In this document: positions 20,042 to 30,601 of the stretch, one piece after another
Layout: each line of letters opens with the position of its first letter
Numbering within the stretch: the stretch's first letter is position 1
Assembly (NCBI GenBank): GCA_029251525.1
Contig: JAQXDE010000048.1
Coordinates: 106,515 to 170,514 of the forward strand
DNA length: 64,000 nt
DNA from: Saprospiraceae bacterium
GTDB taxonomy: Bacteria > Bacteroidota > Bacteroidia > Chitinophagales > Saprospiraceae
Reading direction: 5' to 3'
Notes under the pieces: model-generated
Databases searched by the model: none
What the model was told of the DNA's origin: nothing
The model's input: the letters and a program-made list of their open reading frames with translations, nothing else
Position numbers and translations under genes: made by a program

Positions 20042-21601
20042 ATGGAAAAAATTAAAATCCTTTGGGCAGATGACGAAATTGATTTATTGAAACCACAAAT
20101 TATGTTTCTAGAAAAGAGAGATTATGATGTGATTGCAGTTAGTAATGGTTATGATGCCCTAGAAGAGTGTGAAACTACTAAAAATATTGATGTCGTATTT
20201 TTGGATGAAAGTATGCCCGGTTTAACTGGACTAGAAACTTTAGCAAAAATCAAGGAGTCAAATCCACATCTTCCTGTGGTTATGATTACAAAGAATGAGG
20301 CAGAAAATGTGATGGAAGAGGCGCTGGGTTCTCAAATTACAGATTACCTGATCAAGCCTGTTAATCCAAATCAGATTTTATTGACTTTGAAAAAAATTAT
20401 CGATAGTAAGGATTTAGTTAGCGAGAAAACTAATTCAGATTATCAACGAGAGTTTCGTCAAATTTCAATGGACATCAATAGTGGTTTGGATGTGGTAGAG
20501 TGGGTGGATGTTTATAAAAAAATTATAAACTGGGAGCTCAAATTAGATGCTTCGACTTCGACTCAAATGGGAGAAATTCTTGCCATGCAAAAGACCGAGG
20601 CGAATGCTGAGTTCTCTAGGTTTATAGAAAGAAAATATGTGAACTGGATTGGTAATCCAGATGATAATACTCCGATCATGTCTCATAATTTGATGAGAAC
20701 TAAAGTTTTTCCAAAGTTAAAAGATGATAAACCTACGATCATGTTATTGCTCGATAATTTACGTTTCGATCAATGGAAGATTTTAGAACCATTATTCACA
20801 GAATATTTTAGAGTAGAAGAGGAAGATTATTTTTATAGTATTTTGCCAACTTCAACACAGTATTCTCGGAATTCTATTTTTGCAGGAATGATGCCATCTG
20901 AAATTCAAAAGCATTATCCTGATTGGTGGTTGAATGATAATGAGCAAGGTGGAAAAAATATGCGTGAACATGATTTGCTTAATGAGCAAGTCAAACGTAT
21001 TGTTCACAGACCTATTAGGGTAGATTATGTAAAAGTGACTAATGTTAGTAAAGCTAAGCAAGTTCAAGACAATATTTTGAACTATATGAATAAAGATTTG
21101 ACAGTAATCGTTTACAATTTTATTGATATGTTGTCACATGCAAGAACTGAAATGGAGGTGCTCAAAGAATTAGCAGGCGACGAAAAAGCTTATCGTTCAT
21201 TAACTCGATCTTGGTTTGAAAATTCATTACTTTGGGATGCATTGCAAACTGCAGCCGAGAGAGGCTGCCAACTTTTAGTAACAACTGATCACGGAACCAT
21301 TAGAGTAAATACTGCTTCAAAAGTTGTAGGGGATCGAGAAACTACCACAAACTTAAGATACAAGGTGGGGCGTAATTTACAATATGATAAACGAGATGTT
21401 TTGGAAGTCCGAGATCCAAAAGATGCAAAGTTACCTCGACCAAATATGAGTTCTACTTTTATTTTTGCGAAGGAAGATGCCTTCTTTCTATATCCCAACA
21501 ATTATAATCATTTCCACAAATACTATAAGAATACTTTTCAGCATGGAGGGATTTCTTTAGAGGAAATTATTTGTCCGTTTATTACCCTTTCAAGTAAGTG
21601 A
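20042..21601 (+). CDS. porX: PorX: response regulator with PglZ alkaline-phosphatase-like domain, T9SS regulator
   Basis: The 519-residue protein has a CheY-like receiver domain (residues 1-125), with acidic pair D10-D11, phospho-acceptor D55 in FLDESMPG, T83 and K105 in LIKPVNP. After a helical linker comes a PglZ domain of the alkaline phosphatase superfamily (about 225-517), with TIMLLLDNLRFDQW, PTSTQYSRNSIFAGMMPSEI, DMLSHARTEME and LLVTTDHGTIRV carrying metal ligands. This architecture defines PorX, which with the PorY kinase controls T9SS genes in Porphyromonas gingivalis. In that species PorX also acts with the sigma factor SigP, and its PglZ domain has phosphodiesterase activity on oligonucleotides. 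No porY is adjacent. The stop codon overlaps copy A of a dispersed hairpin repeat. Confidence 0.93.
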   Translation: MEKIKILWADDEIDLLKPQIMFLEKRDYDVIAVSNGYDALEECETTKNIDVVFLDESMPGLTGLETLAKIKESNPHLPVVMITKNEAENVMEEALGSQITDYLIKPVNPNQILLTLKKIIDSKDLVSEKTNSDYQREFRQISMDINSGLDVVEWVDVYKKIINWELKLDASTSTQMGEILAMQKTEANAEFSRFIERKYVNWIGNPDDNTPIMSHNLMRTKVFPKLKDDKPTIMLLLDNLRFDQWKILEPLFTEYFRVEEEDYFYSILPTSTQYSRNSIFAGMMPSEIQKHYPDWWLNDNEQGGKNMREHDLLNEQVKRIVHRPIRVDYVKVTNVSKAKQVQDNILNYMNKDLTVIVYNFIDMLSHARTEMEVLKELAGDEKAYRSLTRSWFENSLLWDALQTAAERGCQLLVTTDHGTIRVNTASKVVGDRETTTNLRYKVGRNLQYDKRDVLEVRDPKDAKLPRPNMSSTFIFAKEDAFFLYPNNYNHFHKYYKNTFQHGGISLEEIICPFITLSSK

Positions 21602-23483: not shown

Positions 23484-23864
23484 TATTCTAAGCCAAAGGT
23501 TATCTCTAGTAAATGAAGTTTTAGAGTTAATTATAATTTCTATTCTTAAGCCAATTTTTTCTTCTATTTTTTTAAAAAGAGTCAAGGATCTGAAGGTCAA
23601 GTGGTTGGTGTTTATAATACTAAACAAAATTAGCAATCTATAGTATAACTCTTAATCAACTTTGACTTATGGGAAAGGGGATTCAGATGTAAGTATGCAT
23701 TTATTTAGAAAACATCTAAATAGCTTTTCCTTACCATAAACACATCCTTACTTATTTAAAAATTTCAAAAGGTTTATATCTTTGCGGAATATTTCATAAA
23801 GCGTTAATTCTATTAACGTTTATTGTATTTTCAAACTTATTTTTTACCATTAAATATTTGAATT
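23484..23864. other. Leader region of the nqr operon
   Basis: No gene is seen in 381 bases. The region carries the likely nqr promoter -7 element and a long AT-rich leader of about 80 bases. Confidence 0.5.
23777..23784 (+). promoter_or_regulatory. Likely -7 element for the nqr operon
   Basis: TATCTTTG followed by C is identical to the -7 found for the natA-like gene and fits TAnnTTTG. It lies 80 bases upstream of nqrA. The -33 position is poor, so the site is only probable. Confidence 0.4.
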
Positions 23865-25502
23865 TTGAGAAGCAAAATCAATCGGTTTTTTCTCCTTTTT
23901 CTCTTCTTAAATTTTACCTCCGTAGCTTCGGCACAATCTTCTGGTGGAGGAACAAATTACCTATTAACAGCGCTAGCTGCTATTGCAGTATTTATTATTC
24001 TTGGCGCTATTATTATGGTATCGGACAACCTTTTAAAAATCGAAGCAAAAGAAATTGGTGCAGATAAGACAGGCACGAATTATTCGATCTTTCCAAGATT
24101 CAACGAATTGTTTGGTGCAAGTGCACCTAATTATGTTGATGGTCCGGTTACATTTTTGAAGAAAGGACATGATATCTTGTTAGAAGGTGAAGCTACAAAA
24201 TCAACTAACGACGGCGCAGGTGTAACTACTTTTGCAATCCAACCAACTAATTTTATAGGCATGTCACCTATACCTAAAGTAATAGTGTCTGTTGGTGATG
24301 AAGTAAAAGCTGGGGATTCTATCTTCTTTGATAAGAAAAGACCAGAAATTCAATATGTTGCTCCAGTTAGTGGAGAAGTCGTTGCGATCAATCGAGGTGC
24401 AAAACGTTCGATTGCTGAAGTAGTGATTTTGGCAGATAAAGAAATGAGTTATCGAACTTTTGATGTGCCGAACTTGGAAGATTGTAGTCGAGAAGATTTA
24501 GTGAATTTCTTGATGAGCAGCGGCGCATGGTCTTTCCTAAGACAAAGACCTTTTAGTTTAGTAGCTGATCCAATTGATACTCCTCGCAATATTTTTGTTT
24601 CTACATTTGATTCTGCGCCATTGGCTCCAGATTTAAATTATGTAATAGATGGCAATGAAGCTGCCTTTCAAAAAGGTTTAGAAGTTTTGGGGAAGTTTGC
24701 TCCTGTTCATTTGGGTTTAAACGCAAAAGGTAGCGAAGCGCCACATCATGCTTTTACTCAAGTAGAAGGTGTAAATAAGAATTGGTTTCATGGGAAACAC
24801 CCTGTTGGAAATGTAGGCGTTCAAATTCACCATACTGCTCCAATTACCTCTAACTCAAAAGTTTGGGTAGCAGGTGTTCAAGATGTCATCACGATTGGTA
24901 AGTTATTTACAGAAGGAAAATTTGATGCTTCTCGAATGGTCGCTATTACTGGTGCAGAGGTAGAAACGCCTCAGTATGTAAAAACTTACCTCGGTGCAAG
25001 TATCGAAGGTTTAGTAAAAGGTAATTTGAAACCTTTGGAAGAAGGAAAATCAATCCGATTTGTATCTGGAGATGTGCTTTCTGGAAAACAAACTTCAACG
25101 GAAGGTTACCTTGGATATTACGATGATCAAGTAACGGTTTTAGAAGAAGGAGATCAATATGAAATGTTTGGTTGGTTGTTGCCTTTAGCTCCACGTCCAA
25201 CTATTTCAGGAACTTTTCCAAATGGTTTATATCCAGATTTGAAATTTCAAGCGAATACTAATACACATGGTGAGAAGCGAGCATTTGTTGTAACTGGACA
25301 GTATGAAAGCGTCCTACCTATGGATATTTATCCACAACATTTGATGAAAGCGATCATCACAAATGATTTCGAAAGAATGGAAGGTTTAGGTCTGTTGGAA
25401 TTAGCAGAAGAAGATGTAGCATTGTGTGAATTTGCTTGTACTTCAAAGCAACCATTGCAAAGTATTTTAAAACAAGGATTGGACGCTATGCGCGATCAAT
25501 AA
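23865..25502 (+). CDS. nqrA: Na+-translocating NADH:quinone reductase subunit A with an extra N-terminal membrane anchor
   Basis: NqrA is the peripheral cytoplasmic subunit of the Na+-NQR complex. The family core (about 445 residues) begins near residue 98, with VTFLKKGHDILLEGEA. It includes VIVSVGDEVKAGDSIFFDK, APVSGEVVAINRGAKRSI, FVSTFDSAPLAPDLN, HPVGNVGVQIHHTAPI and the C-terminal cysteine-containing ALCEFACTSKQ. Ahead of it lie about 97 extra residues: a signal peptide (FFLLFLFLNFTSVASA), QSSGGGTNY, then a membrane helix about 32-56 (LLTALAAIAVFIILGAIIMV). Signal peptide plus one helix would place the core in the cytoplasm, as needed. The start must be the TTG at 23865, since a TGA lies two codons before and no ATG precedes the extension. 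First gene of nqrABCDEF. Confidence 0.9.
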   Translation: MRSKINRFFLLFLFLNFTSVASAQSSGGGTNYLLTALAAIAVFIILGAIIMVSDNLLKIEAKEIGADKTGTNYSIFPRFNELFGASAPNYVDGPVTFLKKGHDILLEGEATKSTNDGAGVTTFAIQPTNFIGMSPIPKVIVSVGDEVKAGDSIFFDKKRPEIQYVAPVSGEVVAINRGAKRSIAEVVILADKEMSYRTFDVPNLEDCSREDLVNFLMSSGAWSFLRQRPFSLVADPIDTPRNIFVSTFDSAPLAPDLNYVIDGNEAAFQKGLEVLGKFAPVHLGLNAKGSEAPHHAFTQVEGVNKNWFHGKHPVGNVGVQIHHTAPITSNSKVWVAGVQDVITIGKLFTEGKFDASRMVAITGAEVETPQYVKTYLGASIEGLVKGNLKPLEEGKSIRFVSGDVLSGKQTSTEGYLGYYDDQVTVLEEGDQYEMFGWLLPLAPRPTISGTFPNGLYPDLKFQANTNTHGEKRAFVVTGQYESVLPMDIYPQHLMKAIITNDFERMEGLGLLELAEEDVALCEFACTSKQPLQSILKQGLDAMRDQ

Positions 25503-25554: not shown

Positions 25555-26865
25555 ATGAGTTTATTAAAATTTTTAAAGAAAATTGAACCAGACAAAAAGT
25601 CGTCTCCATTTTTACACACATTGTTTGATGGATTCTTCACTTTTGCCTATGCGCCAGATACTGTAACTAAAGGTGGTGTTCATATCAAAGATGGTATGGA
25701 TTTGAAAAGATTGATGGTGCATGTGGTTTTAGTTTTGCAATTGTGTTATGCTTTTGGTTCATTAAATATTGGACACCAGCACTTCGCTGCACTTGGAATG
25801 TATCCAGATTTTCTAGATGCTTTTCATTTGAAAATCACTTATGGTTTGATTCAACTCATTCCGATTTTCGTGGTTGCACATTTAGTTGGTTTGGGTATCG
25901 AGTTTTGGTATGCAGCTAAAAAAGGACATGCCATTGAAGAAGGATTTTTAGTTTCAGGAGCATTGATTCCATTGATTATGCCGCCAGATGTGCCATTGAT
26001 TTGGTTAGCGTTGGCAGTTGCATTTGCAGTAATTATTGGAAAAGAAGCATTCGGTGGAACAGGAATGAACATCTTTAATGTAGCCTTATTATCAAGAGCA
26101 TTTATCTTCTTTGCTTATCCTACGGAAATGGCAGGAGATACCATGATTAGTGGAAAAGAGGTTTGGGTATCAGGATTAGAATTTGATGCAGCGCAACTTG
26201 CCGAAGGTGTGAAACAACAAGTTTCCTACTACCATTGGTGGTCGCATGGTGTTTTTGATAATCTATTTAGTGCATTCGGTTGGAGAACATTTGGTGAAGG
26301 CGGTGTTGCTGTAGCTGATAGTTTTACAGGAGCAACACCACTTGGTTTAGCAAAAACTGGAGGATGGGCAGCAGTAGCTGAAGTATATACGCCAACACAA
26401 ATGTGGTGGGGAGGACTACCAGGCTCAATTGGTGAAAGTTGTAAACCATTTATTATAGTTGGTGCCGCAGCATTAGTTGCGATGAAAGTAGCCAGTTGGA
26501 GAGTAATGGTCGGAATGATTATCGGATGTGCATTAACTGGAATGTTGATGAATGGATTTACTGCAGGTTATGAAGACCCAAGTTTATCTTATTTACAAAT
26601 TCCGTGGTACTACCATTTCTACATGGGAAGTTTCTTTTTCTCTATGGCATTTATGGCTACAGATCCAGTAACCGCAGCTTCTACAAACAGAGGAAAATGG
26701 ATATATGGATTTTTTATTGGAGCAGTTGGATTAATTATTCGAGTAATGAACCCAGCCTATCCAGAAGGATGGATGTTGGCGATTTTATTCATGAATGTTT
26801 TCGCTCCTCTTATTGATCACTACGTGTTAGAATCTAACATGACAAAAAGATTAAAACGTGCATAG
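25555..26865 (+). CDS. nqrB: Na+-NQR subunit B
   Basis: The 436-residue membrane subunit carries covalent FMN. The flavinylation site is T261 within DSFTGATPLG, matching the S/TGAT motif modified by ApbE. The N-terminal KKIEPDKKSSPFLHTLFDGFFTFAYAPDTVTKGGVHIKDGMDLKR region and about ten hydrophobic segments fit the family; YPEGWMLAILFMNVFAPLIDHYV is the typical end. It lies 52 bases after nqrA and overlaps nqrC by 8 bases. The subunit forms part of the sodium channel and quinone site in the inner membrane. Confidence 0.95.
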   Translation: MSLLKFLKKIEPDKKSSPFLHTLFDGFFTFAYAPDTVTKGGVHIKDGMDLKRLMVHVVLVLQLCYAFGSLNIGHQHFAALGMYPDFLDAFHLKITYGLIQLIPIFVVAHLVGLGIEFWYAAKKGHAIEEGFLVSGALIPLIMPPDVPLIWLALAVAFAVIIGKEAFGGTGMNIFNVALLSRAFIFFAYPTEMAGDTMISGKEVWVSGLEFDAAQLAEGVKQQVSYYHWWSHGVFDNLFSAFGWRTFGEGGVAVADSFTGATPLGLAKTGGWAAVAEVYTPTQMWWGGLPGSIGESCKPFIIVGAAALVAMKVASWRVMVGMIIGCALTGMLMNGFTAGYEDPSLSYLQIPWYYHFYMGSFFFSMAFMATDPVTAASTNRGKWIYGFFIGAVGLIIRVMNPAYPEGWMLAILFMNVFAPLIDHYVLESNMTKRLKRA

Positions 26866-27580
26866 TACAAATCAAGTCTTAATGTTTGTTTTCGTAATGA
26901 CTACCATAGTTGCCGTAGGGTTAACTGGATTGCGAGAAGCAACGAAACCATTAGCAGATGCCAACGAAGCTATTTTTAATAAAAAAGGAGTTTTGGCAGC
27001 TGTTAAATCTCAAATTGGAGAAGATCCAAAAAATTGGGATAACGCACAAGTAGAATCTGAGTTCGCTAAAGTAAAAGGATATGTCTTTGATTACGAGGGA
27101 AATCCTATTCAAGATATGGTTGCTATCGATTTAGAAAAAAATCGAGATAAGAACAATAAGCTAGCGGTTAAGGAACGAGCCTTTCCAGTTTGGGTTTACG
27201 AAAAAGGAGGAGAAAAGTTTTACGTAGTTACCGTTTATGGAAAAGGACTCTGGGATAAAATATGGGGAACAGTTGCTTTGAAAAGCGATCTCAATACTAT
27301 CGTTGGTGTAAGCTTTGACCATAAAGGAGAAACGCCTGGATTGGGAGCAGAGATTAAAGATAGTCCTGCTTTTAAATCACAATTTGAAGGTAGAAAAATC
27401 TACAATGATGCTGGAGAGTATAAATCTATTATCGTTCGGAAAGGTGGTGCAAAGGATAAAACTCACGAGGTAGATTCAATATCGGGGGCAACGATCACAG
27501 GTGATGGTGTAACTGATATGTTTGTGGAAGGATTGGCTAATTATAAGCCAGTTTTGGATGCAGCTAAAAATATGAAATAA
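26858..27580 (+). CDS. nqrC: Na+-NQR subunit C
   Basis: The 240-residue protein has a single N-terminal membrane helix (VLMFVFVMTTIVAVGLTGL) and a large periplasmic FMN-binding domain. FMN attaches covalently to T212 in the SISGATITGDGV motif. GKGLWDKIWGTVAL and ETPGLGAEI are further family blocks. It begins with GTG at 26858 inside the end of nqrB, so translation is probably coupled. The next gene follows after 144 bases. Confidence 0.95.
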   Translation: MHSTNQVLMFVFVMTTIVAVGLTGLREATKPLADANEAIFNKKGVLAAVKSQIGEDPKNWDNAQVESEFAKVKGYVFDYEGNPIQDMVAIDLEKNRDKNNKLAVKERAFPVWVYEKGGEKFYVVTVYGKGLWDKIWGTVALKSDLNTIVGVSFDHKGETPGLGAEIKDSPAFKSQFEGRKIYNDAGEYKSIIVRKGGAKDKTHEVDSISGATITGDGVTDMFVEGLANYKPVLDAAKNMK

Positions 27581-27724: not shown

Positions 27725-28468
27725 ATGGCAGAGTCAGCAACTTCAAATATAGTAGAAGTTAAAGAGCCTAGCTTTCCTTTCGGAAAAAAAGAAAAGCAAT
27801 TAATTACTGATCCATTGATGGACAATAATCCAGTTACAATTCAAGTATTGGGGATTTGTTCTGCATTGGCTGTTACAACGCAGGTATTTCCTTCGTTCGT
27901 GATTTCTATCGCAGTAGTTTTTGTTTGTGCTTTCTCAAGTTTGGCAACTTCATTACTTCGAAATAATATTCCGACACAAGTTCGTATGATTGTCCAATTG
28001 GTAATCATTGCAACTTTGGTAACTGTGGTAGAATTGGTATTGAAAGCATTTAGCTTTGAAGTGTATAAACAACTATCTGTATTCATCGGATTGATCATTA
28101 CTAATTGTATCGTAATGGGACGTTTGGAAGCTTTTGCTATGGCGAACAGACCATGGAAATCTTTCCTAGATGGAATTGGAAATGGACTAGGTTATGGATT
28201 GATCTTGTTGATTGTTGCTTTTTTCAGAGAGTTATTTGGAAAAGGGACATTATTCGTAGGAAGCCCAGCTGAGGTATTTATCATTGGAGCAAATAATGCC
28301 ACCACTACTTACTGGATCAATACTGCAGCAGAAAGTGGGTTTGGAAGTTACTTTAGTTGGTATGCTAATAACAATTTAATGGTTTTACCAGCTGCAGCAA
28401 TGTTTATCATTGGGATCTTCATCTGGTGGCAGAGAAGTAGAAATCCTAAATTGGTTGATATTTCCTAA
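27725..28468 (+). CDS. nqrD: Na+-NQR subunit D
   Basis: The 247-residue integral membrane subunit has six hydrophobic helices. The family block NNPVTIQVLGICSALAVTT starts at residue 34, and NCIVMGRLEAFAM contains the conserved inner-membrane cysteine that pairs with NqrE in binding an iron centre. The N-terminus is longer than in Vibrio NqrD (about 210 residues) by a soluble leader of about 20 residues, MAESATSNIVEVKEPSFPFG. The ATG at 27725 is preceded by an AT-rich stretch with no other start. Confidence 0.95.
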   Translation: MAESATSNIVEVKEPSFPFGKKEKQLITDPLMDNNPVTIQVLGICSALAVTTQVFPSFVISIAVVFVCAFSSLATSLLRNNIPTQVRMIVQLVIIATLVTVVELVLKAFSFEVYKQLSVFIGLIITNCIVMGRLEAFAMANRPWKSFLDGIGNGLGYGLILLIVAFFRELFGKGTLFVGSPAEVFIIGANNATTTYWINTAAESGFGSYFSWYANNNLMVLPAAAMFIIGIFIWWQRSRNPKLVDIS

Positions 28469-28511: not shown

Positions 28512-29123
28512 ATGGAATTTTTTAATGTTTTTATAAAATCAGCATTTATTGAAAATATGGTCTTGGCCTATTTCCTTGGAATGTGCTCTTTCCTTGCCGT
28601 TTCAAAAACTGTTAAAACAGCCTTTGGTTTAGGATTAGCAGTAATCTTTGTATTGGCGGTAACTATGCCAATCAACTGGGTGATCAATGAATATTTATTA
28701 GGTGAAACTGGAATTTTTGGAACAGACTTAACCTTTTTACGTTTTATTTTGTTCATTGCAGTAATTGCTTCAATGGTACAATTAGTAGAGATGGTGATAG
28801 AAAAAGTTTCTCCTTCATTATATAATTCATTGGGTATATTCCTTCCATTGATTACAGTAAACTGTGCGATTTTAGGAGGTTCATTATTCATGGTTTCACG
28901 AGAATACAACCTTTCAGAATCAGTAGCGTTTGGTTTAGGAGGAGGGTTTGGATGGTTTTTAGCAATTATTGCTTTAGCTGCAATTCGAGAAAAATTAAGA
29001 TATTCAAATGTTCCACCGGCATTGCGTGGATTAGGAATGGCGTTTATTTTAACTGGATTGATGGGAATGGCATTTATGAGTTTGATGGGAATCGATCCAA
29101 CCGTTTATTCTGTAGGAAATTAA
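28512..29123 (+). CDS. nqrE: Na+-NQR subunit E
   Basis: The 203-residue subunit is paralogous to NqrD and has inverted topology, with six helices. Diagnostic stretches are [21 protein letters not shown] at the N-terminus and [17 protein letters not shown] near residues 111-127. The cysteines in those two blocks are the expected ligands of the intramembrane iron site shared with NqrD. Length matches the family. It follows nqrD by 43 bases. Confidence 0.95.
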
Positions 29124-29260: not shown

Positions 29261-30601
29261 ATGCTTTTATTTAGTATTACAACATTGGCTTTTGCATGGA
29301 TGGTATTTGTTATCGTGATATTATTGTTATCAATGATGTTAATTCAAGCAAGAAAGAAATTAGTACCTCAAGGAAATGTCTCCATTGTCGTAAATGGTGA
29401 TACAGAGAACCCACTTTTGGTGCAACCTGGTTCGTCTTTATTGACTGTTCTTTCAGGTGAGAATATTTTCCTCCCATCAGCGTGTGGTGGAGGTGGAACT
29501 TGTGCGATGTGCGAATGTCATATTGACAGCGGAGGTGGAGATGTTTTGCCTACAGAATTAAATCACTTGTCTAGGAAGGAGGTAGCAGAAAATATGCGAA
29601 TTGCGTGTCAAGTAAAGGTTAGGGAGGATATGGAGATTAGAATTCCAGAAGAAATTTTTGGAATTAAAAAATGGGAGTGTGAAGTTGTCTCCAACTACAA
29701 TGTGGCAACTTTTATTAAGGAGTTTATTGTAAAACTTCCGGAGGGAGAGAATCTTGATTTTGAGGCAGGTGGTTATATACAAGTAGATGTTCCTGAAATA
29801 GAGGTGCCATTCAAGTCAATGGATATTACAGCACATCCAAAATATCATGATACTCCAGACAAATTTCAAAAGGATTGGGATAATTTTAAGATGTGGGACT
29901 TGAATATGAAAAATGATGAGGAAGTTTTTAGGGCTTATTCTATGTCAAACCACCCTGCGGAAGGAGATATAGTATCATTAACAATTCGTATTGCGACGCC
30001 TCCACTCAAATGGGGTGTAGATAGTGCAGGAAAACGTAAATGGGAAGGGTATCTACCAGTTAACCCAGGCATTTGTTCTTCTTATGTCTTTGGTTGTAAG
30101 CCAGGTGATAAAGTAACCATTTCTGGACCATATGGTGAGTTTTTTATCAAGCCCACAAAAGCAGAAATGTTGTATGTTGGTGGAGGTGCAGGAATGGCGC
30201 CGATGCGTTCTCACTTGTATCACTTGTTTCATACCCTGAAAACAGGTCGAAAAGTAACTTTCTTCTATGGTGGTAGAACACGGCAAGAGTTATTCTATGT
30301 TGAGGAATTTAGAGAAATAGAAAAGGCATTTCCTAACTTTAAATTTGCGGTTGCTTTGGATGGTCCACTACCAGAAGATAAATGGGTACTGAAAAAAGAT
30401 TTGGATGACCCAGAGGGTGATGGATTTAAAGGCTATGTTCACAATGTTGTAATCGATGAGTTTTTGAGCAAACACCCAGAGCCAGAAGAATTAGAATTAT
30501 ACTTCTGCGGACCTCCAATGATGAATCAATCTGTTATTAAAATGGCAGATGATTGGGGAATTCCTGAAGAAAATGTAGCATTCGATGATTTTGGAGGATA
30601 A
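29261..30601 (+). CDS. nqrF: Na+-NQR subunit F, NADH-oxidising flavoprotein
   Basis: The 446-residue subunit takes electrons from NADH. It has an N-terminal membrane helix (residues 5-27) and a 2Fe-2S ferredoxin domain with C75, C81, C84 and C116, in the pattern CGGGGTCAMCECH and then IACQVKV. The FAD-binding domain contains RAYSMSNHP, and the NADH-binding domain contains YVGGGAGMAPMRSH, FFYGGRTRQEL and the terminal YFCGPPMMNQSV. It is about 40 residues longer than Vibrio NqrF, mainly through insertions in the FAD domain (KYHDTPDKFQKDWDNFKMW), as seen in other Bacteroidota. Last gene of the operon, closed by a strong terminator. Confidence 0.96.
   Translation: MLLFSITTLAFAWMVFVIVILLLSMMLIQARKKLVPQGNVSIVVNGDTENPLLVQPGSSLLTVLSGENIFLPSACGGGGTCAMCECHIDSGGGDVLPTELNHLSRKEVAENMRIACQVKVREDMEIRIPEEIFGIKKWECEVVSNYNVATFIKEFIVKLPEGENLDFEAGGYIQVDVPEIEVPFKSMDITAHPKYHDTPDKFQKDWDNFKMWDLNMKNDEEVFRAYSMSNHPAEGDIVSLTIRIATPPLKWGVDSAGKRKWEGYLPVNPGICSSYVFGCKPGDKVTISGPYGEFFIKPTKAEMLYVGGGAGMAPMRSHLYHLFHTLKTGRKVTFFYGGRTRQELFYVEEFREIEKAFPNFKFAVALDGPLPEDKWVLKKDLDDPEGDGFKGYVHNVVIDEFLSKHPEPEELELYFCGPPMMNQSVIKMADDWGIPEENVAFDDFGG

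Follow-up and report, generated by a model that had tools for sequence, protein, structure and literature searches.

The window, that is the whole stretch of 64,000 nucleotides that was analysed, contains on its forward strand a complete nqrABCDEF cluster, in which nqrA (23865-25502) is the first gene and is followed in order by nqrB (25555-26865), nqrC (26858-27580), nqrD (27725-28468), nqrE (28512-29123) and nqrF (29261-30601), the products of the latter five each scoring above their TIGR cut-off and NqrF displaying its own N-terminal hydrophobic helix in the sequence. The first open reading frame, started by TTG, encodes an NqrA of 545 residues, which scores as a whole protein above the curated cut-offs of TIGR01936 (438.1 versus 321.05) and NF003761 (509.9 versus 450). 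While its fold is related to RnfC of Rnf complexes (7zc6_C, Foldseek E 1.3e-20), which carries FMN and two [4Fe-4S] clusters according to the section consulted of PMC12174285, the window protein scores far below the rnfC cut-off (38.5 versus 245.95) and is not RnfC. This nqrA is the single match within its own genome, and among the best 80 of 128 relatives the closest named matches are Saprospiraceae metagenome assemblies with 92 and 91% identity. Elsewhere in the window, PorX, the response regulator of type IX secretion, is found at 20042-21601 (812.6 bits versus a cut-off of 300), with a PglZ-like part. A promoter element of Bacteroidota is TAnnTTTG, which is fitted by TATCTTTGC at 23777-23785, 80 bases 5' of the TTG. 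Several relatives likewise seem to have TTTGC-type stretches of this sort before nqrA.

The canonical NqrA core begins at residue 98. As the Pfam NQRA_N match starts at residue 98, the NqrA equivalog TIGR01936 spans residues 98-542 and residues 95-542 are aligned in the best PDB match to NqrA, an extension of 97 codons (23865-24155) precedes the core, which runs from 24156 to 25502 (residues 98-545 plus stop) and is recognised by Pfam, NCBIfam, PDB and Foldseek matches. The extension opens with a predicted signal peptide (residues 1-23; 23865-23933) with K/R in the n-region, the h-region FFLLFLFLNF and the end SVASA before Q24, followed by the putative mature N-terminus with its Gly/Ser stretch QSSGGGTNY (residues 24-32; 23934-23960), predicted to lie outside and with few K/R before the helix. 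A transmembrane helix is predicted for residues 33-53 (23961-24023) from hydropathy and the structure model, and leads into a juxtamembrane helical segment (residues 54-65, DNLLKIEAKEIG; 24024-24059) and, based on the alignment and the structure model, a predicted cytoplasmic linker (residues 66-97; 24060-24155). An in-frame TGA stands two codons 5' of the start (TGA ATT TTG), so that TTG 23865 is the sole standard start yielding the entire extension, the next in-frame start being an ATG within the helix (residue 51); the four loci of the same genus (L001-L004) share a TTG at this position. An earlier note, made from the letters of this DNA, had described about 97 residues with a signal peptide, a Gly/Ser stretch and one hydrophobic helix before the core as well as a TTG start forced by the upstream stop, and both descriptions are borne out. 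The same note had placed the N-terminus outside and the core in the cytoplasm, and the predicted topology is consistent with this placement, as K/R residues are more frequent after than before the helix in 120 of 123 signal- and helix-bearing upstream frames (equal in two, fewer in one), with a mean of 0.10 in the nine residues before versus 1.93 in the fifteen after the helix (n=123).

The putative cleavage site SVASA|QSS fits the Q-rule of Bacteroidetes, by which Gln directly follows the signal peptidase I cut (as stated in the part consulted of PMC5837995). At the expected cut, the preceding residue is A in 59 of 66 aligned rows and the following residue Q in 60 of 65 (A23-Q24 in the window). 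With a looser pattern Q follows the cut in 117 of the 123 frames, the six misses including L087 and L203, the latter with the helix misplaced by the script and the Q site visible. In L087, a metagenome assembly, signal peptide and helix upstream of nqrA are apparently read in different frames. The pattern of cut site and charges thus agrees with an N-terminus outside and a core in the cytoplasm. In the structure model (mean pLDDT 83.1, pTM 0.82) residues 32-64 form one continuous helix, with modest confidence within the extension (block pLDDT 50-82), and the core matches V. cholerae NqrA with a Foldseek E of 2.4e-47.

Distribution was assessed in the 25 genomes of the window's own family within a first sample, in 298 genomes of the order, which overlap this first sample, and in a 296-genome sample of the phylum Bacteroidota. 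NqrA was present in 24 of the 25 own-family genomes of the first sample, with the helix in all 22 judgeable N-termini (G016 and G017 not judgeable). In the order sample of 298, NqrA occurs in 84 genomes of the own family and is missing from 12 listed ones; with G016 (N gap in the core, N-terminal half not found) and G550 (contig end) set aside, 82 N-termini could be judged. The earlier note had named conservation of the extension in relatives beforehand as the test of its proposal, and the helix is present in 75 of these 82, read directly in 57 and deduced in 18 from an alignment starting at query residue 6-38 (17 of the 18 at 22 or lower). These 75 comprise 64 with signal peptide and helix (47 read, 17 deduced), ten read to be without a Q-type signal peptide (helix alone in eight, two hydrophobic stretches in two) and one (G595) counted as helix-bearing by deduction. 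The helix is absent from seven own-family NqrA (G468, G570, G552, G489, G497, G554 and G568), four of which fall in another NqrA lineage. Of 28 NqrA from the remaining families of the order, eight bear a helix (two in f5, three in f70 and one each in f10, f13 and f69), and 20 are without (13 in f12, two in f2 and one each in f6, f9, f11, f14 and f66). Of these 20, 11 were read, and nine were assigned from open frames no longer than 469 residues. Outside the order, none of the 48 NqrA of the phylum sample has room for the extension, the open frames measuring at most 488 residues, with three of the alignments extending upstream over a TAA. As judged from these sequences, the helix is a lineage feature of the family.

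Upstream frames were obtained by a tblastn search of the core against the fetched loci, upon which the frame was read upstream to the first stop, and the same order of parts recurs across relatives. The 142 distinct frames of at least 50 residues (of 159), a count which omits the loci with shorter upstream frames, these being without the extension, comprise 123 with signal peptide and helix, 17 with the helix only and two with neither; the labels helix only and neither, as well as the state of L087, were assigned by eye for this count and for the 119-core tree. In three pairwise comparisons (own Nei-Gojobori count), the extension yields a Ka/Ks of 0.07 and 0.16 when the window is set against two members of its genus and of 0.18 when these are set against each other, versus 0.08-0.10 for the core in the same comparisons. 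The extension is under purifying selection, and its frame, by its conservation, is no chance open frame. Weighted mean entropy is 2.38 for the signal peptide, 2.62 for the Gly/Ser stretch, 2.24 for the helix, 1.74 for the juxtamembrane segment and 2.47 for the linker, versus 1.27 for the core and equally 1.27 for the membrane-contact loop (431-470, a range set from the alignment). The alignment, A1, consists of the window and 71 loci from L062-L137, leaving out L001-L058 (other collection), the near-copies L059-L061, L105, L131 and L134, L087 (broken frame) and L101 (helix misplaced by the script). The juxtamembrane segment, being the best conserved part of the extension, is the best candidate for a specific contact. 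As the helix itself is weakly conserved compared with the core and its conservation displays no significant helical face (periodicity test, P = 0.08), conservation does not establish a specific packing site, and helical periodicity was dropped as proof of a packing face.

A tree of 119 NqrA cores, calculated by a quick method with SH-aLRT support only and leaving out fragments, L216, L230, L238 and identical cores, unites the own-family type in 72 rows (support 99); a second tree of 130 cores, sampled differently and equally without fragments, had its state labels assigned by script, except for L087 by eye. Four rows inside the own-family group are without the helix, L202, L204 and L138 together (beside L014, support 98) and L205, and are read as two losses; with these four rows, the helix is not indispensable everywhere. 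On the other hand, the nqrA genes of L212-L215, from genus g193 of the same family, are without the extension and group in the 119-core tree with families f25 and f33, which suggests that the nqr operon of g193 was acquired from elsewhere, probably horizontally; simple loss of the extension in this genus was rejected on the same grouping. Four other g193 genomes gave no NqrA match. In several lineages the helix is retained and the signal peptide absent, a state that requires five changes in the 119-core tree (at least three forced by starred branches) and three in the 130-core tree (at least one forced). This pattern is read as repeated loss of the signal peptide with retention of the helix, while gain with reversals could also give the three forced changes. 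L206, L207, L209 and L210 possess an N-terminal helix or helices that score 0.7-13.9 bits on the family profile, below nearly all unrelated controls with signal peptide and helix. The anchor may have been kept in these four with the helix replaced or far diverged, and the helices of L206, L207 and L210 may be non-homologous as they do not match the profile.

In the V. cholerae NQR structures, as far as described in the sections consulted of PMC9325719, NqrA is without a transmembrane helix in a complex of 24 helices, and is attached through a loop at its C-terminus that intertwines with the NqrB N-terminus, with NqrF binding to NqrA. The window core aligns with V. cholerae NqrA (PDB 7xk3, 8a1u) over residues 95-542, and the C-terminal membrane-contact loop aligns gap-free and equals the core in its conservation within the family, while the window protein, unlike V. 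cholerae NqrA, adds a signal peptide and a helix in front. A compensating loss of the loop is therefore rejected, and since the window protein retains the loop by which NqrA is attached to NqrB in V. cholerae, the helix would be an addition and not a replacement. With its predicted and conserved helix 33-53 the window protein would be an NqrA outside the soluble sub-type of the V. cholerae kind. It would resemble the single-helix subunits NqrF and NqrC, in which a hydrophilic domain is carried on one helix (PMC9325719), acquisition of the NqrF helix by fusion or convergence having been proposed (PMC4014512); in contrast, a helix on NqrA is absent from the passages cited of both accounts. In the open-licence PMC literature on NqrA, Bacteroidetes and Saprospiraceae topics, as judged from titles and the opening of abstracts, we found no account of an NqrA signal peptide or N-terminal helix, and the helix is absent from the solved structures found. 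The window gene product combines a cleavable-type signal peptide with a single helix; to our knowledge, NqrF and NqrC are without a cleavable signal peptide.

We consider it likely that the window protein is a true NqrA turned single-pass membrane protein, inserted by Sec with the N-terminus outside, its signal peptide cut, its core cytoplasmic and its helix beside the complex; own-family NqrA would probably be fixed in the membrane in general. In such a scenario, the growing chain would be delivered to Sec by the signal peptide, with the Gly/Ser tail crossing the membrane and the next helix stopping within it, while signal peptidase I would cut before Gln24, to be cyclised subsequently under the Q-rule. 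The helix would exit the membrane as the conserved juxtamembrane helix, which the 32-residue linker would join to the NqrA core in the cytoplasm. NqrA would be tethered at the NqrB/NqrF side on top of the old C-terminal loop attachment, and the complex would have one helix more than the 24 known from V. cholerae.

Whether translation starts at the canonical NqrA N-terminus was a concern of the earlier note, and an annotation artefact, in which an untranslated frame would precede a real start near the core or at the ATG within the helix, might be seen in the TTG start and in the variation of start codons among 97 loci with a signal peptide, counting near-copies (ATG 59, TTG 34, GTG 3, unassigned 1; own rule). 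The low Ka/Ks of the extension and the conservation of frame and parts in 123 of the 142 long upstream frames argue against such a start, which we regard as highly improbable. Equally, a separate upstream gene for signal and helix, as envisaged by the note, was looked for by eye in three frames of the 600 bases upstream of eight extension-free loci and none was seen. Should the signal peptide remain uncut, both hydrophobic segments would stay as a membrane hairpin of two helices with the core still cytoplasmic, an arrangement to which the own-family L206 and L207, with two hydrophobic stretches and without a Q site, would conform; the strong conservation of the small residue and Q at the expected cut and the several members without any first segment make it improbable for the window protein. 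It comes closer to an even chance that the helix merely targets and tethers NqrA, keeping it close to the membrane without any specific contact within the complex, as the helix sequence is weakly conserved without a significant helical face and as L206, L207, L209 and L210 possess a helix despite their low profile scores, while the adjoining juxtamembrane segment, more conserved than helix and linker, speaks against a tether alone.

With respect to origin, the extension might have been gained several times independently in the order and not once, which we hold possible but somewhat doubtful. The other helix-bearing families stand apart from the own family in both trees, with weak forks. On the full profile, L020 of f5 (24.5 bits) and L225 (25.8) are outscored by the CcoP-like control L172 (29.0, the highest of the unrelated controls), so that this profile partly rewards signal peptide plus helix as such. 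On a profile of the juxtamembrane segment only, f69 (9.3 bits), f10 (6.6), f5 (2.1) and two of the three f70 members (6.0 and 0.6) score low; in contrast, L019 of f13 (22.6) and the f70 member L221 (14.8) lie far above the sole control reported (0.5; one of 13). No Pfam family stands behind the extension: among the 25 of 47 families listed, none is matched by more than 7 of the 72 members, and the best E is 0.00052. Weak profile matches outside NqrA (best E 1.6e-4) were fetched for 16 loci, of which 13 look like N-termini of CcmD (10) or CcoP (3): L159-L165, L168, L169 and L171 we take to be CcmD-like small proteins and L166, L172 and L173 presumably have CcoP-like N-termini, with L167, L170 and L174 falling outside this assignment. 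A comparison by hhalign of the extension with CcoP, using only two CcoP-like sequences motif-picked from 15 loci, gave a probability of 8.7 with and 0.2 without the helix; a FixP_N family search, with matches in 12 of 24 relatives and none in the genome of the window, served this comparison alone. Derivation of the extension from CcoP or CcmD finds no support for common descent, the likeness being confined to signal peptide and helix. Such Bacteroidota N-termini share with NqrA a signal peptide, a short tail and one helix before a cytoplasmic part, and this arrangement is perhaps a common way in Bacteroidota of placing proteins with the N-terminus outside.

Returning to the membrane-anchored NqrA, we suggest only tentatively that NqrA supplies a 25th transmembrane helix to the NQR of Saprospiraceae, packed beside NqrB/NqrF, that its juxtamembrane helix (DNLLxIEAKxxG) contributes to the shape of the NqrA-NqrB-NqrF interface in the vicinity of the quinone site, and that the signal-free members display conversion of a Sec-cleaved N-out protein into a reverse signal-anchor protein with unchanged topology. 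The sections consulted of PMC4014512 and PMC12174285 place NqrA in the cytosol, with neither transmembrane helix nor cofactor, and treat its function as an open question; the former calls it structural, and the latter assigns it no direct function. The sequence evidence is strong for a real and conserved architectural change, specific to this lineage, in a well-known enzyme whose NqrA would become a membrane-anchored subunit; an account of NqrA as soluble only would then be incomplete. Flavilitoribacter nigricans DSM 23189 (L062) is a culture-collection strain suited to structure work. A lineage in which NqrA is welded to the membrane, together with sub-lineages in which it has seemingly been unwelded again, may provide a natural test of whether NqrA serves to keep NqrF and NqrB in position.
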